From IMG/VR virus record IMGVR_UViG_3300034522_000052, positions 1-60,412 of that record: a DNA stretch of 60,412 bases, one strand, 5' to 3'. The notes below the pieces were generated by a model that saw nothing but the letters and a program-made list of their open reading frames with translations, did not search any database and was not told the DNA's origin. This document shows positions 3,003 to 60,412 of this stretch, piece by piece. The position numbers were made by a program, and so were the translations under genes. The DNA is from a virus. How positions within the stretch are numbered: position 1 is the stretch's first letter; each line of letters starts with the position of its first letter.

Positions 3003-3015
3003 GGTCTATTTCCCC

Positions 3016-3604: not shown

Positions 3605-3623
3605 GGTGAATCCTTGAATAGAA

Positions 3624-3644
3624 AGCCCCGTACTGGCCGGGGCT
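3624..3644 (-). terminator. Weak intrinsic terminator between early genes
   Basis: Perfect 7-bp stem AGCCCCG/CGGGGCT with a 7-base loop; on the minus strand it is followed by TTCTATTC. The T-run is poor, so it is at most an attenuator inside the leftward operon. Confidence 0.4.
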
Positions 3645-3648
3645 CTGG

Positions 3649-6092: not shown

Positions 6093-6112
6093 GGTCTGGG
6101 TCCTTTGGTCGG

Positions 6113-6292
6113 TTAGTTGCGGGCTTTCTTGGCCTGCAGGTCGTGGATCTTCTTGGCTGCGGCCTCGGCGGTTTGCCGATCGCAGGTGATGCCGCCGGGC
6201 AGGATGAACTTGCCGGGCTGCTTGGGGTGGGGCATAACGACGCCCAACCCGATGACTACTGCGCCGCAGTAGGGGTTTTCCGTGGCTTTCAT
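6113..6292 (-). CDS. Small hypothetical protein (59 aa)
   Basis: ATG at 6292 follows GAGGACCCCC. Contains PYCGAVVIGLGVVMPHPKQP and GITCDRQTAEAAAKKIHDL, similar to small phage proteins encoded beside rdgC. The longer open frame overlaps the methylase gene and is not needed. Function unknown. Confidence 0.6.
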   Translation of the reverse strand: MKATENPYCGAVVIGLGVVMPHPKQPGKFILPGGITCDRQTAEAAAKKIHDLQAKKARN

Positions 6293-6350
6293 GGGGGTCC
6301 TCGACTTATCCACCGTTTCTGTGTGGCCTGAGGTGGATGGGTTGGGGGTA

Positions 6351-15519: not shown

Positions 15520-15574
15520 CAATTTCACCATATCGTTAGATTCAACAAACATATCCCATTATGCCTCTGTGCAA

Positions 15575-38464: not shown

Positions 38465-41400
38465 TGGCCAAGAAACCCGCTTATCGCGCCGGCCGTGACC
38501 AGGCCGCAACAGCCGAGAGCGTGGAGCTGCTCACCGGGCAGCGTGGCGATCGCCTTGATAAGGCAGTCACTTTCCGGGAGCTGGCGGCATTGGGGCTGTC
38601 TACGCTGCGCCCTGGTGCTGGCGGTGTTTATGTCCCGGGCAAGAACCTAGACCTTTTCCCTCCGGGCCAGATGGAGTTTCCCCACGCCCCGGTCAATGTG
38701 ATCGCCAATGGCGCATTTCATACGGTCCTGGTTGAGTGGGATCCGCCGCGGTACCGGGGGCACGCTCACGCCGAGATCTGGCGAGCGGAGAGCGACAACC
38801 AAGCCCAGGCCACCCTGGTGGGGACCTCTTCGGCCAATCTCTTCTCTGACGCCATTGGCAAGGGTGCCACGTTTTACTACTGGGTGCGCTTTGTCAACGG
38901 AAAGGATGATAGGGGCCCCTTCCAGGGCATGCAGGGCATCGTGGCGGAAACCAGTCGGGATGTGCAGGACATTCTGGACGAGTTGCAGGGCAAGATTGAA
39001 AAGAGCCATCTGGTTCAGTCGTTGCTCAACCCCATAGAGGATGTTCCTCAGCTCCAGTTGGATGTGTCGATCCTAAAGCCAAAGGTCGATGAAATCGAGG
39101 TTATCCGTCCCAAGGTCGCTGCCATCGAGGGCAAGATCCCCAGTATTGAGCAGGACATTGCGATCCTAAAGCCAAAGGTCGATGAAATCGAGGTTATCCG
39201 TCCCAAGGTCGCCGCCATCGAGGGCAAGATCCCCAGTATTGAGCAGGACATTGCGATCCTAAAGCCAAAGGTCGATGAAATCGAGGTTATCCGTCCCAAG
39301 GTCGCCGCCATCGAGGGCAAGATCCCCAGTATTGAGCAGGAGTTGGCCGGGCTGGATGAGCGCCAGAAGGTAGCTCAAGAGCTGCTGGATGATGCCCAGC
39401 AGCAACTGGGGATGTCGAGCATTGAGATCGGCCTAGTGCAGGATCGCTTGAATGCGAAGCTCGATAAGTACAAGGGTGATTTCGACTCGTTCCGCGATGC
39501 GGTGTTTGTCGTGGATCCAGAAAGCGGCAGCATCACGATGGATGCGGTCAATGCGGTGCGAGAGGAGCTTCACTCTTCCATTACTGGAGTTCAGCAGGAG
39601 CTTGATGCCGTATCAGGGCAGATCACCAGCAAGGCGGATAACGTCACGGTTGATAGCCAGGGGCAGCGCATTACCGAGGCCGAGCAGCGTATCAACGGGC
39701 TCGATGCCAGCCTGAGCCAAACCGTCACCCGGGGGGAGTTCACAGGCGAACAGCAGCGGGTCACCCAGATCGGTCAAGAGCTTGATGCGACAAAAGGGGT
39801 GCTGGCCCAGAAGGCGACACAGCAAGAGGTTGACGAGCAGGGCGAGCGGCTGGCCAACGCGGAAAGCAAGCTGACGGTACACACCGATGAGCTGAGTTCA
39901 CAGGCGCAGCGCCTTGATGGGCTGGCGGCCCAGATCACCCAGGGTGACGAGACTCTTCGGGCCAGTATCACTGAGCTGGCGCGTGTTTCGGCGGAAAGCG
40001 ATCAGGTGACCACGCAGCGGGTCAGCGGGCTCGAAGTGAGGGCGGGGGCATCAGAGGCCAAGATCCAGGCGCTCGAAGAAATCTTCGCGGATGACGGTGG
40101 TATTACTGCTGGCCGATTCGACGCCATCACGGCAGAACTCGAGCTGCAGCGAGGGAATGATGACGACAACGCATCTGCTGCGATCGATGGTGCCCTGGCC
40201 GTGGATGAGCGGGATCGGGAGACGCGGAAGGCGTTCGGGGCCATCCGTACAGAGCAGAGGGTAATCCTGACGGAGCAGCAGGCCCAGGCTCAGCGCACAG
40301 CAGACATGGAAGTGAAGTTTGAAGCGAAGGACGCTGCTACCCAAGCCAGGATCTCGTCGGTTGAGAAGGTGACCTCTGATGCAGACTCGGCGCTGGCACA
40401 GCGCATTGATAACGTCACAACGGAGTTCAAGGCGGCTGATGCTCAGGTCAATGCCGATATCCTGTCGCTGGCGCGGTCGAGCGCCGCCGCGGACGAGGCC
40501 CTGTCCTTGCGCCAGGACCAATTGGCTGCGACGTTATCGAGTGCGGCGGCAGATATTGCGGCGAACATCACGCGGGAAGAATCAGCAAGGGTTACTGCCG
40601 ATGAGGCCATCTCGAGGCGGGTGTCTGAGGTTGAAGCGCAGTTTGGCAGCGATCTCGAGGATACGAATGCGAGGCTTGCGACGGAGGAGCTGACCCGGGC
40701 GAGCCAGGGGGAAGCGCTCGCCCAGCAGATCAGCACTGTAGATGCTGCTTTCAAGGCCGCGGATACAGAGCTGTCTGCCTCCCTCGCTGAGTCGAGCAAG
40801 GCCCTGGCAGATGCCAAGCAGGCACTGGGGGAGCGTATCAGCACCATCGATGTGACGGTCGAGGAGAACGCGGCCAGCATCACCGAGCTGCAGCAGGCCG
40901 TGGTGAGCAATGAGGAGTCGCTGAGCCAGCGCCAGGACAAGCTGGAATCAGAGGTAGATGTTGGCGCCGTCAGCCAGGTTGAAGGTGCCTTGGCCGGGGA
41001 TGAACGTGACCGAGAGAACCGAAAGGCTCGCGGCGTCATTCTCCAACAGCAGAGCACGCTGGCGAATCAACAGGAGGCGCAAGCCAGGACTGTTGAGCAA
41101 CTGACCGCTGAGTTTGATGCTGAGAATGCGGAGATCAGGGCGCAGATCACCAATGAGCAGTTGACCAGGGCGACGGCTGATGAGGCGCTGTCACAGCGGA
41201 TCAGTGTTGTGGATGCCGAGTTCAAGGCGGCCAATGCGGATACCAATGCCGTTATCAGCGCTCTTGAACAATCGAGCGCATCGGCTGATGAGGCGTTGTC
41301 CTTGCGCCAGGACCAATTGGCTGCGACGTTATCAAGTGCGACGGCAGATCTTGCGGCGAACATCACCCAGGAGGAATCAGCCAGGGTCACCGCAGATGAG

Positions 41401-46921: not shown

Positions 46922-47155
46922 TTATTTATCCTGGTTGCCGCTCATTGCGTCATCGAAGAGTTTGTTGATGACCGCCTTAATCTCTTCGTAGCTGGCTTGT
47001 TGAGGGGTGTCCCCACGATTAATCGCGTCTTGGAGTATCTGCACGATTTCCGAGTTCATTGATCGGCCATTCTTCCTCGCGCGCTCCTGAATTTTAATTT
47101 TTAAATCATCAGGCAACCTGACTCCAAGCGGGGCGATATTGCTTGCTCCTTTCAT
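46922..47155 (-). CDS. Mnt/Arc-type ribbon-helix-helix repressor, cassette 1
   Basis: 77 residues. GVRLPDDLKIKIQERARKNG and RSMNSEIVQILQDAI are the Arc-family strand-helix-helix core, with a C-terminal helix extension as in Mnt. Divergent from the Arc-like gene at 47266; three palindromic operators lie between. By analogy with P22 immI it should repress the antirepressor transcript in the lysogen. Confidence 0.88.
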   Translation of the reverse strand: MKGASNIAPLGVRLPDDLKIKIQERARKNGRSMNSEIVQILQDAINRGDTPQQASYEEIKAVINKLFDDAMSGNQDK

Positions 47156-47180
47156 GCGTGACCTCTGGCAAAAAAAATAT

Positions 47181-47251
47181 CTACATAATGTAGCAATTTC
47201 TCACTTGACTGAATAGCTACATGATGTAGAGTTTGTGTCTACATGGTGTAG
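47181..47251. promoter_or_regulatory. Three operator palindromes, cassette 1
   Basis: CTACATAATGTAG (47181-47193), CTACATGATGTAG (47217-47229) and CTACATGGTGTAG (47239-47251). They fill the gap between the divergent ribbon-helix-helix genes. A plus-strand promoter with TTGACT at 47205-47210 would place its -10 in or next to the second operator. Confidence 0.85.
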
Positions 47252-47265
47252 GTATTGGAGCGACG

Positions 47266-47421
47266 ATGAAGACGAGCAGCATCCCGCCATTTGGCGTTCG
47301 GATGGAAAAAGAACTGAAAGACTTGCTGGCCAAGCAGGCAAGGAAAAATGGGAGATCTCTTAACTCTGAAGTGGTCCAGATCCTGAAAGAGGCACTTAAG
47401 TATGAAGAGAAAGATGTGTGA
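47266..47421 (+). CDS. Arc-like repressor, cassette 1 (51 aa)
   Basis: MKTSSIPPFGVRMEKELKDL, LAKQARKNGRSLNSEVVQIL: a minimal Arc protein (P22 Arc has 53 residues). First gene of the rightward antirepressor transcript, so it should limit its own expression as Arc does. ATG behind TTGGAG. Confidence 0.88.
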   Translation: MKTSSIPPFGVRMEKELKDLLAKQARKNGRSLNSEVVQILKEALKYEEKDV

Positions 47422-47435
47422 GGGTGTAAATGGCT

Positions 47436-47465
47436 CGGCCCCGGCGGGTGCAACCGCCAAGGCCG
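47436..47465 (+). promoter_or_regulatory. Conserved two-part hairpin before antirepressor 1
   Basis: CGGCC, 2 bases, GGCGG, 6-base loop, CCGCC, 2 bases, GGCCG. It lies 15 bases after the Arc-like stop. The same 5-2-5-6-5-2-5 layout occurs in cassette 2 at the same distance, with a paired change inside the inner stem. Confidence 0.8.
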
Positions 47466-47500
47466 AAGGATGTAAATCAAACCAAGTTGAGGACCTGTGT

Positions 47501-48298
47501 ATGAATTTACACGAGAAGTGTAACGCTTCTGATACTGACAGCCAAGTGGCGCTGATCCCGGTTAACCAGAGCCAGGTCGGTGATGATCTGGTGCAGACCG
47601 TCAATGCTCGCGAGCTTCATGCCTTTCTGGAGGTTGGGAAGGTGTTTGCCGCCTGGATCCAAGAGCGCATAGAGCAGTTTGGCTTCGTTGAAAATCAAGA
47701 CTTTATAGTTATTTCCGAAACTGGAAAAAACCCTAAAGGTGGGCGACCTAGCAAGGAATACTTCCTCGCACTGGACATGGCCAAAGAACTGTCCATGGTT
47801 GAGCGCAACGCGAAGGGGAAGCAGGCTCGCCAATACTTTATCCAGTGCGAGCGCGTGGCAAAGTCACCGAACAACAACCCCATGCTGGTCGCTTCCACCA
47901 TGAATAGCGATCAACTGGCCCTGTTGATGGGGGAGGTTAAGCGGCGTGAAGCGGTGCAGCGTGAGCGAGACGAGGCGATCCGCACCAAGGCTTGCATCTC
48001 CAGCAGCCGAGAGGCGTCCGTAATGGCCAAGCTGGGCCATACCAAACGTGAGAACGAAGCGCTCAAAGAGCAATTGGGAGTTGGCACCAAGCACAAGAGC
48101 GTGAAGGGTGCAGGGCTGGAGCAGTTCTATATCGATGAGGGTGGCAACCGACGCCAGACCGCCAACCGGCTCAAGAAGATTGCGCTGGAGATGGGATTGG
48201 CTGGCGACATCATCGACATTGAAGACCCTAACTACGGCACGGTGAAGGCGTATCCGGTCAGTGTGATAGAGCGTTTCAAGCTGGAGGTGGCGGCATGA
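47501..48298 (+). CDS. AntA/AntB-type antirepressor, cassette 1
   Basis: 265 residues from ATG 47501 with GAGGA upstream. Residues 25-105 form the AntA/AntB N-domain (QTVNARELHAFLEVGKVFAA, GRPSKEYFLALDMAKELSMV, NAKGKQARQYFIQCER). The C-terminus (GAGLEQFYIDEGGNRRQTAN...) is a second small domain. Should bind and inactivate the CI-type repressor or a related one. The upstream frame through the hairpin is open but is probably leader. Confidence 0.87.
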   Translation: MNLHEKCNASDTDSQVALIPVNQSQVGDDLVQTVNARELHAFLEVGKVFAAWIQERIEQFGFVENQDFIVISETGKNPKGGRPSKEYFLALDMAKELSMVERNAKGKQARQYFIQCERVAKSPNNNPMLVASTMNSDQLALLMGEVKRREAVQRERDEAIRTKACISSSREASVMAKLGHTKRENEALKEQLGVGTKHKSVKGAGLEQFYIDEGGNRRQTANRLKKIALEMGLAGDIIDIEDPNYGTVKAYPVSVIERFKLEVAA

Positions 48299-48438
48299 GT
48301 GCAACCCAACTGCAAGACGAGCTGACCGCCTTGCTCGGCGATCTGGATGCTATTGACCTGACCCCAGAGGATCGCAGGCTGATTGCCAATCGGATTGAGC
48401 GCATGATGCCGGTTGAATATTCACCCGCCCAGCGTTAG
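48295..48438 (+). CDS. 47-residue helical peptide following antirepressor 1
   Basis: MSATQLQDELTALLGDLDAI, DLTPEDRRLIANRIERMMP. ATGA overlap with the antirepressor gene. Clearly related to the peptide at 59698 in cassette 2 and less closely to the one at 59957. Late promoter D overlaps its end. Confidence 0.75.
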   Translation: MSATQLQDELTALLGDLDAIDLTPEDRRLIANRIERMMPVEYSPAQR

Positions 48439-48441
48439 CAT
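48413..48441 (+). promoter_or_regulatory. Late promoter unit D
   Basis: TTGAAT, 17 bp, TAGCAT, with CCCAGCGT before the -10. It overlaps the last codons and stop of the 47-residue peptide gene. Start predicted near 48448; reads into the giant virion gene. Confidence 0.7.
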
Positions 48442-48485
48442 CTCTCCATCGTCGGTCAGTCTGCATGCTGATCGCCCCATCTCAA

Positions 48486-48520
48486 AAGCCCCGAACGGTT
48501 CGCCGCTCGGGGCTTTTCTT
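48486..48520 (+). terminator. Hairpin terminator after late promoter D
   Basis: AAGCCCCGA/TCGGGGCTT with a 12-base loop and a TTCTTTT tail, about 40 bases after the predicted start. Confidence 0.78.
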
Positions 48521-48544
48521 TTGAATACAGCCGAGGCCACTCGA

Positions 48545-51500
48545 ATGGACAAGTACAGTCTCCGTGACGCATCCCTGCCACAACCGCTGCAATCTGACTC
48601 TCGAGGAAAGCAGTTCTGGGATGGCATCAACAGTCAGCTTTCATCACCGCCCGCAGCTGCGGCCCCAAAGCGAGACCTCGACACAGAATGGAGCGATTAT
48701 CCCAAGGCGGTAGGCGCTGGCGCGTTGGAGCTGGTCGGTGGCATTGGTGAGTTAGCGCGGGGCGTGATAAGTCACGGGAAAGAGAATGGGGGGAAGACTG
48801 CTTGGGGGAATGTTGCCTCTGCGATCACCCCCTTGATGAAAGGGGTTGCGGCAACAGGGGATTTAGCTCAATCCGGCGCGGATGCCTTGAACGAGAGTAT
48901 GAGTGCTGACGCCAAGGAGGCACTGGGACGCCGACTGGTCGATGAAACGCCAGAAGGCCGGTTGACCCTGGGGGATGGCGCAGGGGATATCGATGTCTGG
49001 GCGATGAAAATGGCGCAGGGCGTTGGCTCTTTGCTACCGACACTCGCCGCTGGCGGGGTGACTGGGGTGGCCGCCAAAGCCTCTATCGGCCGGGCTGTCA
49101 CTGCATCCATGGTCAAGCGTGGCGCGACCCAGGAGGTAGCCGAAGCGGTTGCCGCCAAGGCCGTGTCCAAAATTGCCACCGGCGCCGCCGTCACCACTGG
49201 TGCGACCGGGTCAGTCGGCAGTGCGGGGGTGAACACTCGTGACACCGTGCTGGGCATGAGCTTTGATGAGCTTTCCCGCAGCGATACCTTCCGCCAGGCA
49301 TTCACCCGCATCGACCAGGATCAGCAGACGCAACACCTCTCTGATGAGGAAAAGCTGTCGTTGGCCCGGGAGGAGACTGCCAATGTTGCCAGCCGAGCCA
49401 CCATGAGCGACGCCAAGGTGTGGGGCGCGGCGGCTGTCGGTTCCATGATGGGCGATGCCATGCTGTTCAAGATGCTGGCTGGCAAGGCGGCCACCGGTGG
49501 AGTGCTGAAAGGTGCTGCCAAGGGGGCGGCAGGTGAGGGTATCAGCGAAACCCTGGAGGAGGGGGTGCAGCAATACGCTGTCAACGAATCCCTCAACGAG
49601 GTGGCCGCCGCTGATATCGACCCGATGAAGGGGGTCATGTCGAGCGCGATCGAGGGCGGCTTGATAGGGATGGGGGCAGGTGGTGCGGTAGGTGCTGTCG
49701 GTGGGGCGCGAGGCGGTAAGCATGCCAGCCAGGAAGATGGCGTTGGGACCGATCCGGTTTCAGAACCTTCCGCGCCGGTGACGGAGGGCGCTGCTGGTCC
49801 GGCAGTGGATCCGAACTTTGCATCTGCTCCACTGGAAGACGGCGAGCAGGCGCCCTCCTCCTCGCAGGCCGAGGGGGAGCTGAATCCGCTCGGCCCCAGC
49901 GCCAGCCAGTTTGACGAGCTGCGTGATGTGCCGGCCTATCTGCGTCAAGACGATACCGCCGATCGTTTCAAGGGGATGGCGCAGGATAGCGACGTTCAGC
50001 GAGCCTTGGCCGGTGAGTACGGGAGGTCAGTGCAGGAGCTGGTTGCTTCCCAGATGCAGGCTGGCGATCAGGGCAAGAGTCTTTATGAGCGAGCTCAGGC
50101 TGGTGAGCTTGGGCTTGACCCGTTCGCAGGCAACAAGAGCGCCCAGCAGGTAGCCATGGAGAACCAGCGCCTAGCCCTGCCGCTCAAGGATGTGATCTTT
50201 GCGGGCGATGCCAATGCTAAACCCAAGGGGGAGGCAGTGGCAGCACCTGGGGATCACGATGACCAACAGGCTGGCCCCGGCCCGCAATTCCGAGGTGGTG
50301 AGCGTACCCGCTGGCAGAGCGGGCAGGAGGGGGATGTGTTGCCGCCAGAGGCATCTTCCACCAAGCCCGCTGGCGAGCTGCCGGGCGCGGTGATTGAGGG
50401 TGAGGCCCGCGAGGTGGGTAACGAGTTGCCGCACCGCAATGTGGTCTATGGCAATGACTTGCGCGCCGAGCAGCAACGGGCCGCCGATCTGGCCCGCCGT
50501 GAGCGCGAGCTGAACAACCAGCCCCTGCAGATCGGTCAGTCAGAGACCCTCTTTGCCGGGGGCACACCGGGCGCTGACCCGCGCAATAGCGCCTATACCC
50601 CGCCCAGGCTGTCACGGGATCAGGTCGATACCAGCATGGGCGAGCAGTCCACCCGCGATCCGCGCAGCCCGGTGGCGCAGTCCATCGAGCAGGCAGGCAG
50701 CGCCACCGATTCGGTATTTGGCCCGCTCAAGTCGTTGCGCATCACCCGCAAAGGCAAGCCGTTCGCAACCGAGAAAGAGGCTGCCATGGCCAGCCGCAAG
50801 GGCCAGGAGATGCCGGTGCCGCTCAATGGTGGCGGCTTTGGGGTAGCGGCTATCGGTGAGGTGCAACAGGCCCAAGCGCAGCAGGGCGCAGTCAAGCAAC
50901 CGTCAAGCAATTCGGCCCAGCAGGATCGCCAAGACGGAAAGACTGAGATCGCGCAAAATGGCATGGTGATCGTTCATGGTTCCGGCAATCCAGGCATGAG
51001 CGAGCAGGATATTCAGATTGTCCGCGCAAGTGGTCAGAAGCAGGGCAAAAAGGGCCGTGTCTATGGTGGCTTCTATGGCACCAGCGAGCAGGACGCGCAC
51101 CAAGCGCAAGCCTACGCCGATATGATGGGCGGCACGCCCACCCTGTACGATGTCAAGATTAAGCCTGGCACCAAGGTGTTGCACAAGCAGGGGGATATTA
51201 CCCGCCTTTCTGAAAGCTACATCAACGAGTTGGTGAGTCAGGGATATGGTGTGGTCACCGGCACCGACCCGCGCGGCCAGACAGAGCATGTAGTTATCGA
51301 CAAAAGCGCCGTAGCAAGCATGGCCCCGCGCGGCGCGCAAGCAACCCCGTCCCAAGTCAACGACACGAATGTCGCTGACATAAGGCAACCATCTGATCAG
51401 CCAGCTGCAAGCGTAAGCGCTGAAACAGTTCCGGCACCGTCTGCCACAGCGGGCGAGGCCAGCCAATTAGTACCAGCTATCGATACCGGCTACCGGGATG

Positions 51501-54500
51501 TTATCCCTTCCAGCGAACAATCCGAGGTGACCCATGGCCAGCCTACCCCGATACCTGCAATCAGCAGTGAGCGACCAGGTGATCAGCCTGGAGCAGGCGA
51601 TCCGGTTGCAACAGGTGTTGGACAAACCACTGCCGAACTCGCGGAGCGAGCTGGACCCGGAGATCCGGCAGATGGTGCTCCTCTTACACCTTTACCTGTC
51701 ACCCAACCAGGAGAGGAAAATGCACTGACAGCCCCGGCACCTGCCGGGGTTGCTGTATCTGAAGGGGGGCAACCTGAGCAAGCCCGCGCGACTGCTGGGC
51801 CAGCGGCAGCGCCGACACCCTGGTCGGGGATGATCGATAACCCTGACGGCACCATCACCCTGGAAGGGGAAGTGGCGGCCCTCAAGTCGTGGGCGAAGGA
51901 TAACGGCGTGAAGGCGATCCCGGGCAAGGGTGGCCTGGTAGTGTCCACGACTTCGGTAGCTAAGGTGCGACAGCTCACCACGCCTGCCACCAGTGAACCG
52001 GTGCGGCAGATTGAAGCGGCCCGCGCCGAGATAGCGCCGGAGCCCACCGAAGCACAGAAGGAAGCGGGGAACTACAAGAAGGGGCACATCAAGCTGCAGG
52101 GGCTGGACATTGCGCTCGAGAACCCCAAAGGCTCTACCAGATCAGGTACCGATCAGGATGGCAGGGCGTGGCATTCAACCATGGCCCATGACTACGGCTA
52201 CATCAAACGCACCCTGGGGGCGGACGGTGATCATGTCGATGTGTTCATCGGTGACAAGCCAGATAGCGAGACGGTCTATGTGGTTGACCAGGTTGACCCC
52301 AAAACCGGCAAGTTTGACGAACACAAGGTGATGATGGGCTTTTCCGATGAGCAGGCCGCCCGGGAAGGCTACCTTGGCAACTACGAGGCGGGCTGGAAAG
52401 GACTGGGTGCCATCAAGGCGATGCCGGTGGAATCGTTCAAGCGCTGGGTGAAGGAGGGGGATACCACCAAGCCAGTCGCCAAGAAAGTCCGCATGTCTCA
52501 GCAGCGGGAGGGACTGTCCGCTGACGATGTGGCTCAGATTGTTTCTGACTTTAGACGTGAGTATAAAGGGGCTCAGTCACTCGACTTTATTGTTGGTCAA
52601 ACTCAAGAGGACCTTTATGGACCAGAAGGCGGCCCCGAGCAAATTGGATGGCGGGATGGGGGATACCTCCCCGGCAAGCAGCAAGTCCACCTCATCGCAG
52701 ACAGCATCACCCGCAGAGCCGGGCGTCAGGGTGTTCACGAAGGCGCAGGGGGAGAAAGAGGGGTATCTGGAGATCCCCGTCTTTTACAGCAGAACAGACC
52801 TGCGCCACGAAATGAACAGGGTATGGGAGGAGTTGAAAGAGCAAAAGCGGAAGTCGTCTCTACGTTACGTCATGAGGTCCTGGGTCACTATGGCCTGGAC
52901 ACGTTTACGCCTGAAAATAAGCGAGCTCTCCTCCAAAAGCTGAGTGATGCCAAAAGTGAGAAATGGCTTGCTCCTGCCTGGTCAGAAATCTCCCGCCCGG
53001 AGATGTATGGCGATAAAAGTGAGCAGCACCAGGCGGAAGAGGTGTTTGCCCACCTTACTGAAAACGAGTTGCCACCCCGTGCCATTCAAGCCTGGAACGA
53101 TATCAAGACCGAGTTCTCCCGCATGTTGCGCAAGACTGGCTTGGTGAAAGGCCCCATTAAAGAGCATGAGCTGGACAGCCTTATCAAGGCGGTTGGTAAA
53201 GGCATTCGCAGTGGAGAGCGCACCAAGCAGAACATCCGCAGCGATCAGGAGGTGATCGGCAAACAAGCCGATGAGCCAGCCAAGGATGACAAGCCCGAGC
53301 GCATCATCCGCTTCTCAAAGCAGGCAATGGCACAAGGGGACAAGCCGGCCAAGCACCTGACCCGTAAAGAGGTTGAGCTGGTTTCCCATGGTTGGTTCAA
53401 GCAGTACCGGGGGGCGAGCGGCATCAAGGTACAGATCCACGCCACCCAAGCAGAGCTTGAAGGGGCCCTGGGGCTGGATGCCAAGGACGGATTGATCCGT
53501 CGCGCGGCGTTTGACGACGATGCAGGCACTCTCCATGTGGCTGCCGACACCATCTCCGACCCCAAGCGGATGCGCGAGATCCTGCGCCATGAGGTGCTGG
53601 CCCACTACGGCCTGGCCAACGTCCTGGGTGATGGGGAATACACCAAGCTGATGAGCCGTCTCATCCAGTCGCAGAAGGACCCCAGCATGAAGCCGGTGTG
53701 GGACTGGGTGAACACCCATTACGCCGATGAGGACATCGGCACCCAAGCCGAGGAAGTGGTGGCCCACCTCGCCGAAGTCGAGCAGGGGGCCTGGGGCCGT
53801 GGCTGGGATCGGGTTGTGGCCATGGTCACCCGGGCGCTGCGCGCCGTTGGCTTCGTGCCGGATGGCATCACTGCTGCTGAGACCCGTTCCCTTATCGAAG
53901 GACTGGGTAAGCAGTTGCAGCGAACTGGACAGGATGACGGAGGCTCAGGCGGCAAGAAGTTCAGCCAAGAGGCCGAGCGGCCAGCCAATGATGGCGGCAT
54001 CAAGATGAGCCAGAGTATTGCTGATAACAGCCCTTCCCTTGAGCAATCCATCACGCAAAAGGCGAAATACCAAGCCGGCGCGGCGCTTGGCTCGGTGAAG
54101 AACTACATCAAGCAGAAACGCCCGGTGATGCTTGGCACCTTGACGGACCTGCAAATTGATCAGGTATACCGCGACATAACCGGCGGGGCTGTGTCGGAAT
54201 ACCAGCGCCTGCGCACTCAGATGGAGGCTGATCGTAACGACATCCTGCTGGATGCTGAAACCCGGATCGACCCGCTGTGGGATGCGCTGGACAAGCAGGT
54301 GAAGACGGCTCTTTCCAACCTGATGCACGATGCCACCATGACCCGCTTGCACCCTGACAAGTCACTCGATGAGAACAGCTACTACCTGGAGGCCAAACAG
54401 AAGGTAGAACGAGCCAAGAAACCGGAGACCAAAGCAGCCTATGAAGCAGAGCTTCACATCATCGAGCGCAATCACTCCGAGCTGGCCAGGCAGTACAACG

Positions 54501-56782
54501 CGCTGCCAGCCAATGCCAAGGCTCTCTACGACACCATGCAGGACACCTACACCAAGCAATGGGAATCCCTGCGTGGTGCGATTGAGCAGCGACTGGAGGA
54601 TTTGCTAGGTGTAAACCAAGGGCGTGCCATGGCTGCCGAGATGCGCCAGAAGATGGAGCACGCCCTGCAGCATGGCCCTTACTTCCCGCTGACCCGCTAC
54701 GGCGACTACGTGGTTAAGGCTCGCAAGGGGGACGAGTACGTTCGCGAGCACTTTGAGCGACGAGCCGACGCCGAACAGGCGGTTAAGCAGTACCAGCGTG
54801 ACGGTTACAACGCGGTGATGACGGTCAAAGAGGAGGGCGGTGGCGATAGCGCCAACGCGAACCAGCTCGGCATGGAGATGCTGAGCTTCCTCGATAGCGC
54901 CGATGGGGTCAGTAAGAGCGCCTTGAAAGACGAGATATGGCAGGCGATGCTGCGCATGATGCCGGATGCCTCCTACGCCAAGCATGCTATTCACCGCCGT
55001 CGGGTGAAGGGGGCCAGCCGAGATGCACACCGAGCCTACCTCAACAGCGTCTACCACTATGCCCGCCACGTATCCAAGATCCGCTATGGCCACAAGATGC
55101 AGGGGGAGCTGGACAAGCTGAGCGAGCAGATCCGGGCTGGTGTCGCAGGTGAACCAAGCAGCCTCAAGCCTGAAGACCTGGAGATAGCTCAGCAGGTGCT
55201 CAATGAGATGAACAAGCGCCATGACCTGAACATGAACCCGACCGGCAAGGCGTGGGCGGGTTCTGCCGGTAATATCGGCTTTCTCTACTACATCGGCCCA
55301 TCGGTTGCCTCTGCTGTGGTCAACATGACCCAGAACTTCACCGTGATGCTGCCCCAGCTGGGGGCCAAATATGGTTTTGCGAAGTCTGCTGCCGCCATGA
55401 CCCAGGCGCTGGGGGATTATGTGAAGCACGGTAAATTCAAGGCTGGCACTACCGAAGCGTGGCACTCACTGACGCGCTCTACCACGTTGCCAGCGGATGA
55501 GCGGGCCATCCTGGATAGGCTTTACCGTGCAGGGGCGCTGGATCTCACCCAGGCGCACAGCATTGCTGCCAAGGCTGACACCGACCAGCAAGATGCCAAG
55601 CCGATGGGGAAACGCTGGCGCCGAGCCATGCGCTGGGCGGGGGCCACCTTCCACAACGCCGAGGTGCTCAACCGTGAGGTGGCGGCCCTGGCCGCCTACC
55701 GTTTGCTCAAGCAGGCGGAGCCGACGCTCAATGGCCAGCAATACGCTGACCGGGTGGCTGAAATGGTGTATGACGGCCACGGCAACTACGCCGCCAGCAA
55801 CCGACCACGCTACATGCGCAACGACATCACCAAGGTGCTGACCCAGTTCAAGATCTACAGCCAGATGATGACCTACGTCCTTTACTCCAATGCCATCAAG
55901 GCAGCCAAGGGCGACAAGGTGGCGCAGAAGACGCTTGCCGGCGTGTTGGCAACGCACTGGGTGATGGCAGGGGTGATGGGATTGCCGACACCAATCACCG
56001 CCGTCGTTTATGCGATAGCAGCAGGGCTGGACGACGACGATGACCGCAGCGGTGAAGCGTCATTCCGCCTGGCACTGACCGAGGCGCTCGGGCCCCGCGC
56101 CGGGGAGCTGCTAGCCAAAGGGCCGATGGATGCCTTGACCAATCTCAGCATTGCCGGCCGTACCGGGCTGGGCGATCTGTGGTGGCGTAGCCCCAAGGAG
56201 GGCACCGAAGGGGACGATCTGGCATGGCACGCTGTTCAGCAACTGCTGGGCCCGGTTGCCGGGATTGGCATAAACCTGGCGCGGGGCGCGGGGCAGATGA
56301 CGGATGGCCACATTCAGCGCGGACTGGAAACTATGTTGCCCAAGTCGATTCGCGACGTTGCCAAGTCCTATCGCCAAGCGACAGAAGGGGAGCAGACCAT
56401 TAAAGGCGACATCATCATGGATGATGTTTCGACCTGGAACGTCGCCATGCAGGGGCTGGGTTTCGGTAGCGCCCAAATGGCCAAGAATTACGACGCCCGC
56501 GAATACATCAAAGGCAAGGAGAAACGCATCGCGGATAAGCGCTCCCAGTTGCTGACCGACTATTACATGGCCCGCAAAAGTGGTGAGATGGACGAGGTGC
56601 AAGAGGTACTGGAGCGCATCAAAATGTTCAATTCCATCAACCACCCTCGCGAGCGCATCACCGGCAAGAGCTTGGCGTTGTCGTTTAAGTCAAAGCTTCG
56701 CAGCAACGAGCGCACTCAGGGCGGGGTATACCTCAATCGCAACCGCGAATACCTGAGAGAGGAGGGGCGCTTCGCCGATTAA
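48545..56782 (+). CDS. Giant polyvalent virion protein (2745 aa)
   Basis: Start ATG 48545; the open frame before it crosses the terminator. Residues 1-420 are Ala/Gly-rich and membrane-active (SIGRAVTASMVKRGATQEVA). About 805-930 resemble an ADP-ribosyltransferase-like fold (MVIVHGSGN, RVYGGFYGTSEQDAHQAQAY). About 1170-1310 are the pyrophosphatase-like polyvalent domain (KGHIKLQGLDIALENPKGST). Zincin motifs HEVLGH (about 1442) and HEVLAH (about 1681) follow. The last 650 residues include an LPD38-type region. Such proteins are ejected into the host with the DNA. Confidence 0.85.
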   Translation: MDKYSLRDASLPQPLQSDSRGKQFWDGINSQLSSPPAAAAPKRDLDTEWSDYPKAVGAGALELVGGIGELARGVISHGKENGGKTAWGNVASAITPLMKGVAATGDLAQSGADALNESMSADAKEALGRRLVDETPEGRLTLGDGAGDIDVWAMKMAQGVGSLLPTLAAGGVTGVAAKASIGRAVTASMVKRGATQEVAEAVAAKAVSKIATGAAVTTGATGSVGSAGVNTRDTVLGMSFDELSRSDTFRQAFTRIDQDQQTQHLSDEEKLSLAREETANVASRATMSDAKVWGAAAVGSMMGDAMLFKMLAGKAATGGVLKGAAKGAAGEGISETLEEGVQQYAVNESLNEVAAADIDPMKGVMSSAIEGGLIGMGAGGAVGAVGGARGGKHASQEDGVGTDPVSEPSAPVTEGAAGPAVDPNFASAPLEDGEQAPSSSQAEGELNPLGPSASQFDELRDVPAYLRQDDTADRFKGMAQDSDVQRALAGEYGRSVQELVASQMQAGDQGKSLYERAQAGELGLDPFAGNKSAQQVAMENQRLALPLKDVIFAGDANAKPKGEAVAAPGDHDDQQAGPGPQFRGGERTRWQSGQEGDVLPPEASSTKPAGELPGAVIEGEAREVGNELPHRNVVYGNDLRAEQQRAADLARRERELNNQPLQIGQSETLFAGGTPGADPRNSAYTPPRLSRDQVDTSMGEQSTRDPRSPVAQSIEQAGSATDSVFGPLKSLRITRKGKPFATEKEAAMASRKGQEMPVPLNGGGFGVAAIGEVQQAQAQQGAVKQPSSNSAQQDRQDGKTEIAQNGMVIVHGSGNPGMSEQDIQIVRASGQKQGKKGRVYGGFYGTSEQDAHQAQAYADMMGGTPTLYDVKIKPGTKVLHKQGDITRLSESYINELVSQGYGVVTGTDPRGQTEHVVIDKSAVASMAPRGAQATPSQVNDTNVADIRQPSDQPAASVSAETVPAPSATAGEASQLVPAIDTGYRDVIPSSEQSEVTHGQPTPIPAISSERPGDQPGAGDPVATGVGQTTAELAERAGPGDPADGAPLTPLPVTQPGEENALTAPAPAGVAVSEGGQPEQARATAGPAAAPTPWSGMIDNPDGTITLEGEVAALKSWAKDNGVKAIPGKGGLVVSTTSVAKVRQLTTPATSEPVRQIEAARAEIAPEPTEAQKEAGNYKKGHIKLQGLDIALENPKGSTRSGTDQDGRAWHSTMAHDYGYIKRTLGADGDHVDVFIGDKPDSETVYVVDQVDPKTGKFDEHKVMMGFSDEQAAREGYLGNYEAGWKGLGAIKAMPVESFKRWVKEGDTTKPVAKKVRMSQQREGLSADDVAQIVSDFRREYKGAQSLDFIVGQTQEDLYGPEGGPEQIGWRDGGYLPGKQQVHLIADSITRRAGRQGVHEGAGGERGVSGDPRLLQQNRPAPRNEQGMGGVERAKAEVVSTLRHEVLGHYGLDTFTPENKRALLQKLSDAKSEKWLAPAWSEISRPEMYGDKSEQHQAEEVFAHLTENELPPRAIQAWNDIKTEFSRMLRKTGLVKGPIKEHELDSLIKAVGKGIRSGERTKQNIRSDQEVIGKQADEPAKDDKPERIIRFSKQAMAQGDKPAKHLTRKEVELVSHGWFKQYRGASGIKVQIHATQAELEGALGLDAKDGLIRRAAFDDDAGTLHVAADTISDPKRMREILRHEVLAHYGLANVLGDGEYTKLMSRLIQSQKDPSMKPVWDWVNTHYADEDIGTQAEEVVAHLAEVEQGAWGRGWDRVVAMVTRALRAVGFVPDGITAAETRSLIEGLGKQLQRTGQDDGGSGGKKFSQEAERPANDGGIKMSQSIADNSPSLEQSITQKAKYQAGAALGSVKNYIKQKRPVMLGTLTDLQIDQVYRDITGGAVSEYQRLRTQMEADRNDILLDAETRIDPLWDALDKQVKTALSNLMHDATMTRLHPDKSLDENSYYLEAKQKVERAKKPETKAAYEAELHIIERNHSELARQYNALPANAKALYDTMQDTYTKQWESLRGAIEQRLEDLLGVNQGRAMAAEMRQKMEHALQHGPYFPLTRYGDYVVKARKGDEYVREHFERRADAEQAVKQYQRDGYNAVMTVKEEGGGDSANANQLGMEMLSFLDSADGVSKSALKDEIWQAMLRMMPDASYAKHAIHRRRVKGASRDAHRAYLNSVYHYARHVSKIRYGHKMQGELDKLSEQIRAGVAGEPSSLKPEDLEIAQQVLNEMNKRHDLNMNPTGKAWAGSAGNIGFLYYIGPSVASAVVNMTQNFTVMLPQLGAKYGFAKSAAAMTQALGDYVKHGKFKAGTTEAWHSLTRSTTLPADERAILDRLYRAGALDLTQAHSIAAKADTDQQDAKPMGKRWRRAMRWAGATFHNAEVLNREVAALAAYRLLKQAEPTLNGQQYADRVAEMVYDGHGNYAASNRPRYMRNDITKVLTQFKIYSQMMTYVLYSNAIKAAKGDKVAQKTLAGVLATHWVMAGVMGLPTPITAVVYAIAAGLDDDDDRSGEASFRLALTEALGPRAGELLAKGPMDALTNLSIAGRTGLGDLWWRSPKEGTEGDDLAWHAVQQLLGPVAGIGINLARGAGQMTDGHIQRGLETMLPKSIRDVAKSYRQATEGEQTIKGDIIMDDVSTWNVAMQGLGFGSAQMAKNYDAREYIKGKEKRIADKRSQLLTDYYMARKSGEMDEVQEVLERIKMFNSINHPRERITGKSLALSFKSKLRSNERTQGGVYLNRNREYLREEGRFAD

Positions 56783-56796
56783 TCGCGGCCCTGGCT

Positions 56797-56830
56797 GACC
56801 CCCAGTGACAGATGTAAGCTGGGGGTATTT
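56797..56830 (+). terminator. Late transcript terminator
   Basis: ACCCCCAG/CTGGGGGT with a 13-base loop and ATTTTC, 15 bases after the giant gene. Confidence 0.75.
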
Positions 56831-56844
56831 TCAGGGAGCGAGTT

Positions 56845-57030
56845 ATGACGGTGAGAGAGTGTGTCGAAGGAATTCAAGAGGTGCTATGGTTTCTGGCTGG
56901 CCGCATTATGGAGGGGGTGGCAATGGGGTTTATCATCGCCTGCCTGATCGGTAGCACAGACACCTTCTTGGGGGTGTGGATCATCACCGGCGCCATGTTC
57001 GCGATGTTTGGGCGGCACTGGAGGGGATAA
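56845..57030 (+). CDS. Small two-span membrane protein (61 aa)
   Basis: Two hydrophobic segments, FLAGRIMEGVAMGFIIACLI and FLGVWIITGAMFAMFG. GGGAGCGAG upstream of ATG. Convergent with the membrane protein on the other strand, 3 bp apart. Possibly superinfection exclusion; not proven. Confidence 0.6.
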   Translation: MTVRECVEGIQEVLWFLAGRIMEGVAMGFIIACLIGSTDTFLGVWIITGAMFAMFGRHWRG

Positions 57031-57033
57031 GCA

Positions 57034-57792
57034 TTATTTGTCATTGGGTTTTCTATTAATGAACAACAAGGCAGCCACGCCACCAAGAGCGGCCCACTGA
57101 ATCAACAACCGATGAAAGTCTATCGATACGCTGGTTCTGTTCATATTAGATGTCGGGGTCGGTGGTGTTAATATAAATGAATACCCTGCCGGAGATTCTT
57201 TTTTTGCCCTTCCCCAGTCAACTGCATACTTCCATGGCGGGATTATGCTCATCAGTATGAATGCCAGTAACAATATGTTCAGTGTTTTTTTACGAGCATC
57301 CATCACCAAAAATTTCCCTTTTAGCAACATATAAGCACCAAAAACAAGGATGATAAGCGCCGCACTTAGCCCTCCAATTATAGCCTTTTCAATAATCTTG
57401 CTAGCCCCTTGCGTAGGGGCTTGATTATTTTTAGGTGGAGTTGGCTGGTTAAATGATTCTCTTTGTTCTTCCCAAAACTCAGCCATCGAATCGCTATCTT
57501 TATCGCTTGCAACTTTCACATTGGCAATGTTGTTATTGACTATTTCCCTAGTTAAACGCTCAACCTCTCTAAATCTTTCAGATAGAGGTTTGTCGCGCCA
57601 TTCTGGATCTGCGCTAAGTTTATCATCTATCCCAATGGCTATATCTGCAACCTCACCACCCTGAGCCATCCATGACTTTAGGTCTGGATTTTTATTTAAT
57701 GCTGATTGCACCTCTGACTGCGAATCAGCACTTGCAATGGATCCAGCAGATATTAAAAATGCAAATAATAAGGCAAAAATAAAACGCATCAT
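57034..57792 (-). CDS. Membrane protein with a scaffold-like exported domain
   Basis: About 252 residues. Signal peptide (FIFALLFAFLISAGSIASA). Residues 28-86 match the phage's own scaffold-like protein (30380-31306, residues about 179-237) at 27 of 59 positions with no gap: VQ.AL...PDL.SW and KL.ADP.W..K.L.ERF. Three membrane spans follow (GGLSAALIILVFGAYMLL, LLLAFILMSII, QWAALGGVAALLF). AT-rich, alone on the minus strand: a lysogen-expressed moron is likely. Starts 57792 or 57789; ribosome site weak. Confidence 0.75.
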   Translation of the reverse strand: MMRFIFALLFAFLISAGSIASADSQSEVQSALNKNPDLKSWMAQGGEVADIAIGIDDKLSADPEWRDKPLSERFREVERLTREIVNNNIANVKVASDKDSDSMAEFWEEQRESFNQPTPPKNNQAPTQGASKIIEKAIIGGLSAALIILVFGAYMLLKGKFLVMDARKKTLNILLLAFILMSIIPPWKYAVDWGRAKKESPAGYSFILTPPTPTSNMNRTSVSIDFHRLLIQWAALGGVAALLFINRKPNDK

Positions 57793-57864
57793 ATACCAAC
57801 CATTACGCTGAAAAAAAAACATAATGCATCACTTGGACGGTGCATGTCAGTGACCATAATCACG

Positions 57865-58248
57865 TCATCTTTTCTTACTTTTCATTTCTTGCCGAATGTA
57901 GTCCAGCACTTCCTGTATTTCCTCGCGCCGAACGTAAGGGGTATAGCGAGGATCATCCTTGTCGATCTCGTGAGGCGTGAGGACAGTGCCGGGTGGCAGT
58001 GTGAGTGCGGGGCGATCGAGGTTGAGACCTTCAATGATCTTCATTCCTTCAATGATTTTCACACCACTTTCAGCAAGCGCGGTATCTTCGTCGATGGTTC
58101 GCTGGATGCGATGAACCAACTCGGCGTTCATGGATCTGCCACTTGCCTTTGCCAACTCAGAAATAGTGTCCCTCATGCCGTCAGGCAGCCTGAGTACAAA
58201 CTTGTCTGATTCCCGGCTGGTTGGAACGGTACTTTTCTTACTCATCAT
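57865..58248 (-). CDS. Mnt/Arc-type ribbon-helix-helix repressor, cassette 2
   Basis: 127 residues. KFVLRLPDGMRDTISELAKA and SGRSMNAELVHRIQRTI are the Arc-family core; the C-terminal 75 residues are an extra acidic-helical domain (PYVRREEIQEVLDYIRQEMK). Divergent from the Arc-like gene at 58404. Expected to hold the second antirepressor transcript off in the lysogen. Confidence 0.87.
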   Translation of the reverse strand: MMSKKSTVPTSRESDKFVLRLPDGMRDTISELAKASGRSMNAELVHRIQRTIDEDTALAESGVKIIEGMKIIEGLNLDRPALTLPPGTVLTPHEIDKDDPRYTPYVRREEIQEVLDYIRQEMKSKKR

Positions 58249-58305
58249 CTACTTACGTTTGCTTAAACATATAAGAGAAGCATACAGGCACGGTGACATA
58301 CATCA

Positions 58306-58382
58306 ATGGTGGCACAGAGCCATCTTTTGTGTTGACAGTGCTAGATAGCTGACATAATCTCACGATGGTGGCACAGGGCCAT
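58306..58382 (+). promoter_or_regulatory. Antirepressor promoter with two operators, cassette 2
   Basis: TTGACA (58332-58337), 17 bp, TAATCT (58355-58360). Two copies of an 18-bp sequence, ATGGTGGCACAGAGCCAT (58306-58323) and ATGGTGGCACAGGGCCAT (58365-58382), flank it: one just upstream of the -35, one on the start point. The operator sequence is unrelated to cassette 1, so the two cassettes can be controlled separately. Confidence 0.82.
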
Positions 58383-58403
58383 CATCCATAGAGGAGATGC
58401 AGA

Positions 58404-58553
58404 GTGAGGGATTGGGACAAGTTTATGGTGCGGCTGCCACCCGGCTTTCGGGAGAGAGTTAAGGAGCTGGCAAAAGAGAATGGCCGTTCGATGAATGCCG
58501 AGATCGTGCAGCGATTGAAGGAGGCGCTGAAAAATGAAGGTAAGTTGGCTTGA
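58404..58553 (+). CDS. Arc-like repressor, cassette 2 (49 aa)
   Basis: GTG start with GAGGAG eight bases upstream. DKFMVRLPPGFRERVKELAK, ENGRSMNAEIVQRLKEAL: a complete minimal ribbon-helix-helix protein. Too short for most gene finders but in the exact place of arc. Confidence 0.82.
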   Translation: MRDWDKFMVRLPPGFRERVKELAKENGRSMNAEIVQRLKEALKNEGKLA

Positions 58554-58567
58554 TGCCAGAAAGAATT

Positions 58568-58597
58568 CGGCCAAGACGGTAGCCGCCGTCAAGGCCG
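58568..58597 (+). promoter_or_regulatory. Conserved two-part hairpin before antirepressor 2
   Basis: CGGCC, AA, GACGG, 6-base loop, CCGTC, AA, GGCCG; 15 bases after the Arc-like stop as in cassette 1. The inner stem has an A-T pair where cassette 1 has G-C, which keeps pairing. AATGTAAA follows, close to GATGTAAA in cassette 1. Confidence 0.8.
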
Positions 58598-58634
58598 AGG
58601 AATGTAAACCCAACAACCAAGTAAGGATTACGGT

Positions 58635-59456
58635 ATGACTATACAACAACAGTATCAGCAAACCAAAGTTATTGGCAGGGCCGCGAATCAGTCCATGGTC
58701 GTGCCGTTCCATGGCGACAACCTCTATCTGGTCGAGCACGATGGCGACCCCTATGTACCGATGAAGCCAGTGGTTGAGGGAATGGGGCTGGCTTGGCAGG
58801 TGCAGCATCGCAAGCTGGCAAGTAAGTTCGGCAAAGGTATCATCGAAATGGTGATCCCTTCAGCCGGTGGCAAGCAGACCATGACCTGCCTCCCCCTCCG
58901 CAAGCTACCTGCCTGGCTCTACTCGATTCAGCCGGGGAAGGTTGCCCCCGAGATCCGGGAGAAGGTGGTTGCCTATCAGGAAGAGTGTGACGAAGTGCTG
59001 TGGCAATACTGGACCACCGGTAAGGCCGATCGCCAATCCGTCAGGAAGGCTGCCAAGTCCTACTTGCCGGAATACCGTCAGGCGCGGGCGATCAAGATGA
59101 CCGCAGATGCCATTACGGTGGCGCTCTCGGTCATGCCAAACCTGAGCCAAGAGGCAAGGCAAACTGCGATGGCGACGGCCGTCAACACGGTGGTTGGTGA
59201 CAACATCCTTCCTCTTCCGGTGCTGACTGAGCGTTACTACACCGCCGGAGAGGTGGGTGAGCGGCTTGGTATCAGCGCCAACAAGGTGGGCCGCATCGCC
59301 AACGAGCACAACCTGAAAACCGAGCGATACGGGAAGTTCTTCCTGGACAAGTCCCGCAGCTCGACCAAGCAGGTGGAGACTTTCCGCTACAACGAGGCGG
59401 GGGCTGAGGCGGTTGGCGTCATCATCACTGCGCTGGAAGTTGGGGGTGCGGCATGA
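58635..59456 (+). CDS. P22AR_N-type antirepressor, cassette 2
   Basis: 273 residues with AAGGA upstream. MVVPFHGDNLYLVEHDGDPY, VPMKPVVEGMGLAWQVQHRK, LPLRKLPAWLYSIQPGKVAP and IREKVVAYQEECDEVLWQYW are the N-terminal domain of P22-like antirepressors. The C-terminal HTH-like domain is shared with the protein at 1900-2343. Should inactivate phage repressors; unrelated in sequence to the antirepressor of cassette 1. Confidence 0.9.
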   Translation: MTIQQQYQQTKVIGRAANQSMVVPFHGDNLYLVEHDGDPYVPMKPVVEGMGLAWQVQHRKLASKFGKGIIEMVIPSAGGKQTMTCLPLRKLPAWLYSIQPGKVAPEIREKVVAYQEECDEVLWQYWTTGKADRQSVRKAAKSYLPEYRQARAIKMTADAITVALSVMPNLSQEARQTAMATAVNTVVGDNILPLPVLTERYYTAGEVGERLGISANKVGRIANEHNLKTERYGKFFLDKSRSSTKQVETFRYNEAGAEAVGVIITALEVGGAA

Positions 59457-59701
59457 GCGACAGCAATGTGGTTCCATTCCCGTCTGGCGGAGAGCCAACC
59501 AACGAAACGATTGAGTATCTTCTTGAGATTGAAGGGCTTCTTGAAGATGCAAAGTTGTTGACGTCAGAGTGCGCCATTGCCACCGCTGATGAGCGCAGCG
59601 AGGGGTGCAGGTCGATGGCAAACAGCAAAATCGATGAAGCTCTCATTCATATAGAGTGCTGGATCAGCGAGGAGAGATTTAGCCTGGGAGGTCTGCAATG
59701 A
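59453..59701 (+). CDS. Small helical protein after antirepressor 2 (82 aa)
   Basis: ATGA overlap with the antirepressor. NETIEYLLEIEGLLEDAKLL and a second helix (MANSKIDEALIHIECWISEE). No counterpart in cassette 1. Unknown role. Confidence 0.65.
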   Translation: MSDSNVVPFPSGGEPTNETIEYLLEIEGLLEDAKLLTSECAIATADERSEGCRSMANSKIDEALIHIECWISEERFSLGGLQ

Positions 59702-59829
59702 GTGCCGCCCAACTACAGGTTGAGTTGAATGCCCTGCTGGGGGAGCTGGAGGTTATCGACCTCTGCCCCCAGGAACGCCGGGCGCTTGTTGACAGGATCC
59801 AGCGCATGATGCCTGACAAAGCTGACTGA
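59698..59829 (+). CDS. 43-residue helical peptide, cassette 2
   Basis: MSAAQLQVELNALLGELEVI, DLCPQERRALVDRIQRMMP. Same length class and sequence pattern as the peptide at 48295 in cassette 1. ATGA overlap with the gene before. Confidence 0.75.
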   Translation: MSAAQLQVELNALLGELEVIDLCPQERRALVDRIQRMMPDKAD

Positions 59830-59898: not shown

Positions 59899-59914
59899 CT
59901 GTATGGGTATACAG
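59899..59914 (+). promoter_or_regulatory. LexA (SOS) box over the promoter of the last phage gene
   Basis: CTGTATGGGTATACAG: CTGT, 8 bases, ACAG, with A before and TA after, close to the gammaproteobacterial SOS box. A -10-like TATACA lies inside it (59908-59913) with TTCAAG 16 bases upstream. The only gene downstream is the 40-residue peptide. Confidence 0.78.
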
Positions 59915-59956
59915 TATTTCACAGTCGAGAGACTGGGAGAGCAAGGGGGAAATCGG

Positions 59957-60079
59957 ATGGAATCACTACTAAGCGAACTGGAAGAGTTTGTTGAGACGCT
60001 GGACCTGGCGCCTGAGGAGGAGAGCAAGATCGCGCGCATTCTGGAAAAACTACGCGATGAAGCCACCGCGTCAGCGTGA
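59957..60079 (+). CDS. LexA-controlled 40-residue helical peptide
   Basis: MESLLSELEEFVETLDLAPE, EESKIARILEKLRDEATASA. ATG behind AAGGGGGAAATCGG, 43 bases after the LexA box. Helix-DL.PE-helix pattern like the peptides ending both antirepressor cassettes. Last gene before attR. Because CI seems unable to cleave itself, this peptide is a candidate SOS-driven antirepressor or co-factor, like the small LexA-controlled antirepressors of Gifsy prophages; untested. Confidence 0.7.
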   Translation: MESLLSELEEFVETLDLAPEEESKIARILEKLRDEATASA

Positions 60080-60287: not shown

Positions 60288-60316
60288 TGGTGGAGCTGGG
60301 GGGATTTGAACCCCCG
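60288..60316. other. attR: 29-bp repeat at the ssrA 3' end
   Basis: Identical to 502-530. The tmRNA T-loop and acceptor end stay intact here, so integration preserves ssrA function. Confidence 0.92.
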
Positions 60317-60412
60317 TCCAAAATTACTACATCCTCGGTACTACATGCTTAGTCACTCTTTACATTCGCCAACACGCTGCGGAGAGACACGCCACGCATT
60401 GACTAGCTCGAT
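60288..60412 (-). ncRNA. ssrA: tmRNA (ssrA), 3' part
   Basis: The minus strand shows the tmRNA 3' end: GACTAAGCATGTAGTACCG, then a TTTTGGAC lead into the T-arm and acceptor ending CAGCTCCACCA. The tag-coding part and 5' end lie outside the window. tmRNA rescues stalled ribosomes; its 3' end is a frequent phage attachment site. Confidence 0.93.

Follow-up and report, generated by a model that had tools for sequence, protein, structure and literature searches.

The 60,412-base virus record IMGVR_UViG_3300034522_000052 (the window, at its full length) is most probably a temperate Aeromonas prophage with P22-like late genes and two antirepressor cassettes of the P22 immI type ('ant morons'), each with ribbon-helix-helix (RHH) repressors of its own, a sar-like RNA, an effector directed against CI-type repressors and parts that can be exchanged. 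P22 Ant is a textbook case of an antirepressor, and P22 immI, the variable ant moron and clustered antirepressors in E. coli phages are already known. What is new is the presence of two complete immI units in one prophage, each at a site of its own, the combination of an AntA effector with an immI frame and sar, a map of how the parts reassort, and a correspondence between repressor residues and operators. The anatomy of the cassettes, their operators, the strand and covariation of their common hairpin, the empty sites and the reassortment can all be read from the sequences compared.

Anatomy and location of the two cassettes

The window ends in the 3' part of ssrA (transfer-messenger RNA; 60288-60412, minus strand), with an integrase at the opposite end, and encodes a P22-like portal protein and a CI-like protein with helix-turn-helix and S24 domains (14914-15552, minus strand). 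Its nearest named relative is a sister phage, Aeromonas phage phiARM81mr, and all the cellular relatives that were found are Aeromonas. Cassette 1 (46922-48438) sits among the late genes at what we call site 1, and cassette 2 (57865-59829) occupies site 2, at the end of the late region and near ssrA. The sister phage lacks both cassettes, its homology with the window picking up again at 48420 and at 59828.

A first-pass annotation of this DNA had described both cassettes as built on one backbone, and the order and strands that it gave for the parts agree with the coordinates and Pfam matches collected in Table 1. It was also right in assigning an AntA-type antirepressor to one cassette and a P22_AR_N type to the other, the AntA domain of ant1 (PF08346) scoring 97.5 bits against a gathering cut-off of 27, and in calling the two proteins unrelated, as BLASTP finds no significant similarity between them. 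The small helical peptides said to end each cassette are likewise there, and resemble each other. Although all the elements named in that account stood, it overlooked an open reading frame (ORF) of 82 amino acids (aa) after ant2, a 262-aa minus-strand gene beyond mnt2 and the fact that the hairpin belongs to the minus strand. Searches for solved structures of similar sequence returned none for ant1 or ant2, and no convincing match for the peptides pep1 and pep2.

The likeness to P22 immI extends to gene order and strands (sieA-mnt-operators-arc-sar-ant), to the pair of RHH repressors and the operators at the ant promoter (P_ant), to a probable sar gene that is read from within the ant start and ends in the arc-ant gap, and to the placement in the late operon, which in P22 is between genes 16 and 9. 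On the other hand, P22 has one such locus whereas the window has two, at two sites, with AntA in cassette 1, an ant2 without P22_AR_C, a helical peptide after each ant, and operators unlike those of P22. Cassette 1 is immI-like in its control, with AntA and not P22 Ant as the effector.

The hairpin between arc and ant

The P22 record annotates the antisense RNA sar on the minus strand (15021-15090), transcribed from a promoter within the start of ant and terminated between arc and ant, and places the Arc and Mnt operators on P_ant. The arc-ant gaps of both window cassettes share a hairpin block, as the first-pass annotation had claimed (0 of 500 shuffles). Among 16 cassettes of the phage group, 95.7% of the cells of this hairpin are paired and six pairs have changed on both sides, the number of cells with double changes being reached in none of 500 shuffles. 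Non-Watson-Crick standard pairs are very unevenly distributed: read on the minus strand, G-U accounts for 24 cells, against 1 on the plus strand, which are not independent of one another (6 distinct types against 1). Moreover, a U-rich tail follows most of the hairpins on the minus strand, with cassette 1 departing most clearly from this.

As a strict DNA pattern for the hairpin was found in only five IMG/VR contigs, a covariance model was used instead. In the window it gave exactly two strong matches, both at the arc-ant junctions and on the minus strand, and, trained without P22, it also recognised the sar terminator of that phage (E 0.028), as well as arc-ant junctions in phages of other hosts. 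An Rfam search with the hairpins at permissive thresholds returned no match to any curated family. In a promoter scan with a background 95th percentile of 8.0, in which the annotated P22 P_sar served as positive control and ranked first (9.0), candidate leftward P_sar sites were located at ant2+4 (9.0) and ant1+17 (8.6). The antirepressor start MTIQQQYQQTKV is identical ahead of P22_AR_N, KilA-N and Rha domains, and we infer that it is conserved partly because its DNA would hold the sar promoter.

Given the covariation on the minus strand, the match to the P22 sar terminator and the promoter-like sites pointing leftwards, the best reading of the hairpin is that it terminates an antisense RNA similar to P22 sar. 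It could instead act in cis within the plus-strand ant mRNA, no antisense RNA being involved, since it folds there too with a somewhat weaker pairing; the wobble pairs, nearly all on the minus strand, the U-rich tail of most cassettes and the agreement with the annotated P22 terminator make this quite improbable, and the asymmetry of the wobbles was the ground on which a plus-strand element was dropped. Rfam does not include this sar-like RNA, which appears to recur widely as a constant element.

Occupancy of the sites and exchange of parts

Site 1 could be resolved in 48 relatives, where it is empty in 38, holds an antirepressor cassette in 3 (two identical to cassette 1, the third with a KilA-N antirepressor) and unrelated genes in the remaining 7. 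At site 2, where counts of occupancy are lower bounds because several contigs end nearby, the relatives carry P22_AR_N, AntA, KilA-N or Rha antirepressors. Two cassettes in one phage were seen twice in our sample, in the window and in contig L168 (3300024308_000206; L numbers are our handles for the sequences compared), whose cassette 1 at site 1 is identical to that of the window.

Comparison of individual cassettes shows parts that have parted company in several ways. The repressors of L089 and L181 are 96% alike and precede AntA in the former and Rha in the latter, and L170 and L213 also have repressors, and not antirepressors, in common. The reverse occurs between cassette 2 and L007, which share the antirepressor (85-97%) with different repressors, and between cassette 1 and L089, again with the antirepressor in common and the repressors not. 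Within the antirepressor itself, L208 and L213 share 97% of the C-domain behind N-domains of KilA-N and Rha type. The edges of BLAST blocks cluster at the hairpin and the ant start, and positions 58557-58688 are common to cassettes that differ in both arc and ant. Domain shuffling in viral transcription regulators was reportedly described by Iyer, Koonin and Aravind in 2002.

The sequences thus show an independent reassortment of repressor pair, antirepressor N-domain and antirepressor C-domain, with the sar block conserved in their midst. The modular slot that the first-pass annotation had proposed is well supported by the empty sites of phiARM81mr, the four antirepressor types and the independent movement of the modules. 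Since modules swap around the sar block and block edges cluster there, it acts as the constant joint, kept either as a functional unit, or as homology for recombination, or both.

Such an insertional habit could also suggest passive mobile morons or remnants without a present function here, for sites are empty in most relatives, as in the 38 of 48 for site 1, and some cassettes are degraded (L189, L185). In the window, however, all frames are intact and the operators, the hairpin pairing and the promoter-like site at the ant start have been kept, so that we consider this highly improbable. Alternatively, the cassettes could mainly tune late read-through by means of RHH binding, the sar terminator and P_ant, as has been proposed for the ant moron and tailspike of P22, with the antirepressors being secondary. 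Site 2 has no late structural gene downstream within the window, and the antirepressor frames are intact while their domains are exchanged, which suggests selection on the proteins; a principal role in late transcription is very unlikely.

The unrelated genes held by site 1 encode proteins of 306 aa or 156 aa, or a membrane protein of 359 aa on the minus strand (L169/L185, L199/L200/L213 and L208/L215). Beyond mnt, at the position of the 262-aa gene, many relatives have a different small membrane protein or lipoprotein on the minus strand (L175, L181, L196, L206, L168), and the genes at this sieA position are possible superinfection-exclusion or conversion genes.

Table 1. Elements of the two cassettes, with positions in the window
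Feature	Position	Strand	Evidence
mnt1, Mnt-like RHH repressor, 77 aa	46922..47155	-	Pfam Arc 1e-13; recognition strand P-L-G-V-R
Three operators CTACATNNTGTAG	47181-47193, 47217-47229, 47239-47251		0 in 100 shuffles; same motif in mnt-arc gaps of L055, L068, L071, L168
Predicted P_ant, cassette 1	47205..47232	+	TTGACT-16-TAGAGT, overlapped by operator 2
arc1, Arc-like RHH repressor, 51 aa	47266..47421 (ATG 47266)	+	Pfam Arc 2e-14
Putative sar-like terminator hairpin, cassette 1	47431..47475	-	Covariance model 61.2 bits minus, 29.5 plus; covariation
Candidate P_sar, cassette 1	47517..47545	-	TTGGCT-17-TACACT within ant1 start; top minus-strand site of region, 8.6
ant1, AntA/AntB-type antirepressor, 265 aa	47501..48298 (ATG 47501)	+	Pfam AntA 7e-28; PHROG anti-repressor Ant
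pep1, small helical peptide, 47 aa	48295..48438	+	Overlaps ant1 stop; 64% identical to pep2
Predicted membrane protein, 262 aa, beyond mnt2 (P22 sieA position)	57034..57822	-	No Pfam match
mnt2, Mnt-like RHH repressor, 127 aa	57865..58248	-	Pfam Arc 1e-14; recognition strand K-F-V-L-R
Two operators ATGGTGGCACAGNGCCAT	58306-58323, 58365-58382		Motif search of 60 kb
Predicted P_ant, cassette 2	58332..58360	+	TTGACA-17-TAATCT or TTGACA-15-CATAAT, between both operators
arc2, Arc-like RHH repressor, 49 aa	58404..58553	+	Pfam Arc 7e-21
Putative sar-like terminator hairpin, cassette 2	58563..58607	-	Covariance model 62.1 bits minus, 23.9 plus
Candidate P_sar, cassette 2	58638..58666	-	TTGGTT-17-TATAGT, score 9.0; its -10 is ant2 codons 2-3
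ant2, P22_AR_N-type antirepressor, 273 aa	58635..59456	+	Pfam P22_AR_N 1e-44
82-aa ORF between ant2 and pep2	59453..59701	+	100% in L003/L004; absent from L005
pep2, small helical peptide, 43 aa	59698..59829	+	64% identical to pep1

Control, targets and related systems

Proteins of the Arc family, such as P22 Arc and Mnt, contact DNA through a beta strand. In the window, the motif CTACATNNTGTAG occurs only at its three positions in cassette 1, and ATGGTGGCACAGNGCCAT only at its two positions in cassette 2, with no further site at up to 3 mismatches in the 60 kb, in keeping with the earlier claim that the operators differ; the predicted P_ant lies under the operators in the first case and between them in the second. 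Repressors with the recognition residues P-x-G-x-R in both the Mnt and the Arc position are accompanied by CTACATNNTGTAG-type operators in cassette 1, at site 2 of L168, and in L055, L068 and L071, whose cassettes carry other antirepressors; none of the other cassettes examined combines such a repressor pair with such operators. The repressors of cassette 2 have K-x-V/M-x-R, together with operators unlike those of cassette 1. Because operators and recognition-strand residues both differ, the two cassettes of the window are likely controlled independently.

All four repressors are Arc-like RHH proteins, and one repressor pair might then govern both antirepressors in a single circuit. This is plausible for L168, where both cassettes have P-x-G-x-R repressors and CTACA-type operators, the one at site 2 carrying an ANT/KilAC antirepressor, and cross-control between them is predicted because the repressor and operator types are the same. 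In the window, on the contrary, the operators are unrelated, each being confined to its own cassette, and P-x-G-x-R stands against K-x-V/M-x-R; shared control of both cassettes was consequently judged unlikely. The independent control advanced in the first-pass annotation, which here would follow from operators and recognition residues, is in view of L168 no general rule. As for SOS control, it was rejected since neither cassette promoter has a LexA box (CTGTN8ACAG, up to 1 mismatch).

What we infer from these data comprises binding by the repressors, a function of sar, activity against CI, independent control and a rationale of escape and targeting, best explained as follows. In the lysogen, each pair of Mnt-like and Arc-like proteins would sit on its own operators over P_ant and keep the antirepressor off, while a leftward sar-like RNA, starting in the first ant codons and ending at the arc-ant hairpin, would pair with the ribosome-binding site of ant and damp its translation. 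Where the repressors are absent, as upon entry into a new cell, P_ant would fire and the antirepressor could inactivate CI-type repressors, whether of this phage or of resident prophages, until it is stopped by Arc, Mnt and sar. The cassettes are accessory insertions whose parts can be exchanged: the repressor pair with its operators and the two domains of the antirepressor, N and C, change places around a constant stretch of hairpin, leader and ant start. A swap of repressors may allow escape from the Mnt of a resident prophage and a swap of antirepressors may change the CI targets, with two cassettes giving both effects at once. Altogether, they would form a module of secondary immunity and attack, in which the repressors guard the lysogen against like cassettes and the antirepressors break own or foreign repression on entry.

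Several observations weigh against this explanation, to which we nevertheless give the greater probability. The operators of cassette 2 are only two and imperfect palindromes, and the P22_AR_C domain was not found by Pfam in ant2. The hairpin of cassette 1 lacks a clear U-tract (its tail is CCAUUUACAC), the fold is more stable on the minus than on the plus strand in 13 of 17 hairpins and not in all, and the candidate P_sar of cassette 1 lies 13 bp deeper into ant than that of cassette 2. Moreover, phiARM81mr, with neither cassette, yields 140-fold more particles upon ciprofloxacin (PMC10432266), and the cassettes are therefore not needed for SOS induction.

With regard to targets, P22 Ant inactivates C2, the repressors of phages L, lambda and 21 also being among its targets (PMC3121763), and deletion of immI in P22 lowers lysogeny (PMC11016777). 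In our sample, ant2 (87-95% identity) is found together with CI proteins that share only 37-40% identity with that of the window, which fits a broad target range for ant2, or targets in other prophages. The idea that antirepressor type tracks CI type was not borne out, as ant2 accompanies those divergent CIs while the two closest ones (73-78%) go with KilA-N and AntA cassettes. Next to the integrase, a 147-aa protein (1900-2343, minus strand) matches the C-terminal domain of ant2 (37% over 104 aa), and similar stand-alone copies exist in about a third of 37 Aeromonas genomes.

A further small helical peptide is encoded outside the cassettes. A perfect LexA/SOS box, CTGTATGGGTATACAG, lies 42 nucleotides upstream of a 40-aa helical peptide, MESLLSELEEFVETLDLAPEEESKIARILEKLRDEATASA (59899-60079, plus strand), the final gene before ssrA. 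More than 20 relatives, phiARM81mr included, retain the box together with a similar peptide, and hhalign relates the peptide to pep1/pep2 with a probability of 94.8; it is a candidate SOS-induced small regulator. A more elaborate scheme would make each cassette a three-part device of secondary immunity held together by the sar gene, in which repressor and operator set the immunity group, the N-domain the CI attacked, and the trailing peptide, as a distant homologue of this LexA-boxed one, would itself be an effector linking the cassettes to SOS induction, so that two cassettes would mean two immunities and two classes of resident prophages attacked; this we regard as improbable.

By exchanging parts around the sar block, phages may mix and match which repressor is attacked and which control is obeyed. 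One control frame with AntA, P22_AR_N, KilA-N or Rha, and with or without a second copy, lends itself to direct tests of what the cassette is for, be it secondary immunity, an attack on resident prophages or the two together, and from the correspondence between repressor residues and operators one can simply predict which repressors act on which cassette, as with the cross-control expected in L168.

Among known systems, the ant moron of P22-like phages, with ten types in sixteen genomes at a single location (Villafane et al. 2008, PMC2629481), is likewise a variable insertion in the late operon, either empty or with differing ant, arc and mnt sets; the region is also described as variable in PMC8022706, and phage L lacks it. 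The window, which belongs to another phage group, differs in using a second location and in exchanging parts around its conserved sar block. Several antirepressors (Rha, KilA or Bro-N) are also present in Escherichia phage JEP4 (MT740315) and the E. coli prophage contig L031, next to mnt or mnt-arc-ant and at the site used by P22, although as a tandem cluster at that one site, in which the additional part places a C2-like repressor where Mnt would be and lacks a separate Pfam-Arc pair. The Shiga toxin (Stx) phage vB_EcoS_P32 (KU238068) combines AntA/AntB and P22-type antirepressors in one genome, but no divergent RHH pair is annotated beside its AntA gene and its P22-type Ant is short. Finally, the LexA-controlled antirepressors of Gifsy and Fels (PMC3121763) are prophage antirepressors able to act on other prophages; theirs are small proteins, whereas the cassettes of the window are RHH-controlled, with no SOS box at their promoters.

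Two loci of the compared genomes may be added. In L031, a P22-like prophage of E. coli, positions 2706-6312 encode a C2-like repressor, a ParD-like RHH protein, a Bro-N/P22_AR_C antirepressor and a second antirepressor-like gene, followed directly by a P22-type mnt-arc-ant. In phiARM81mr, a retron-type reverse transcriptase is found within the structural gene region (36971-38604; L001 16972-18605).

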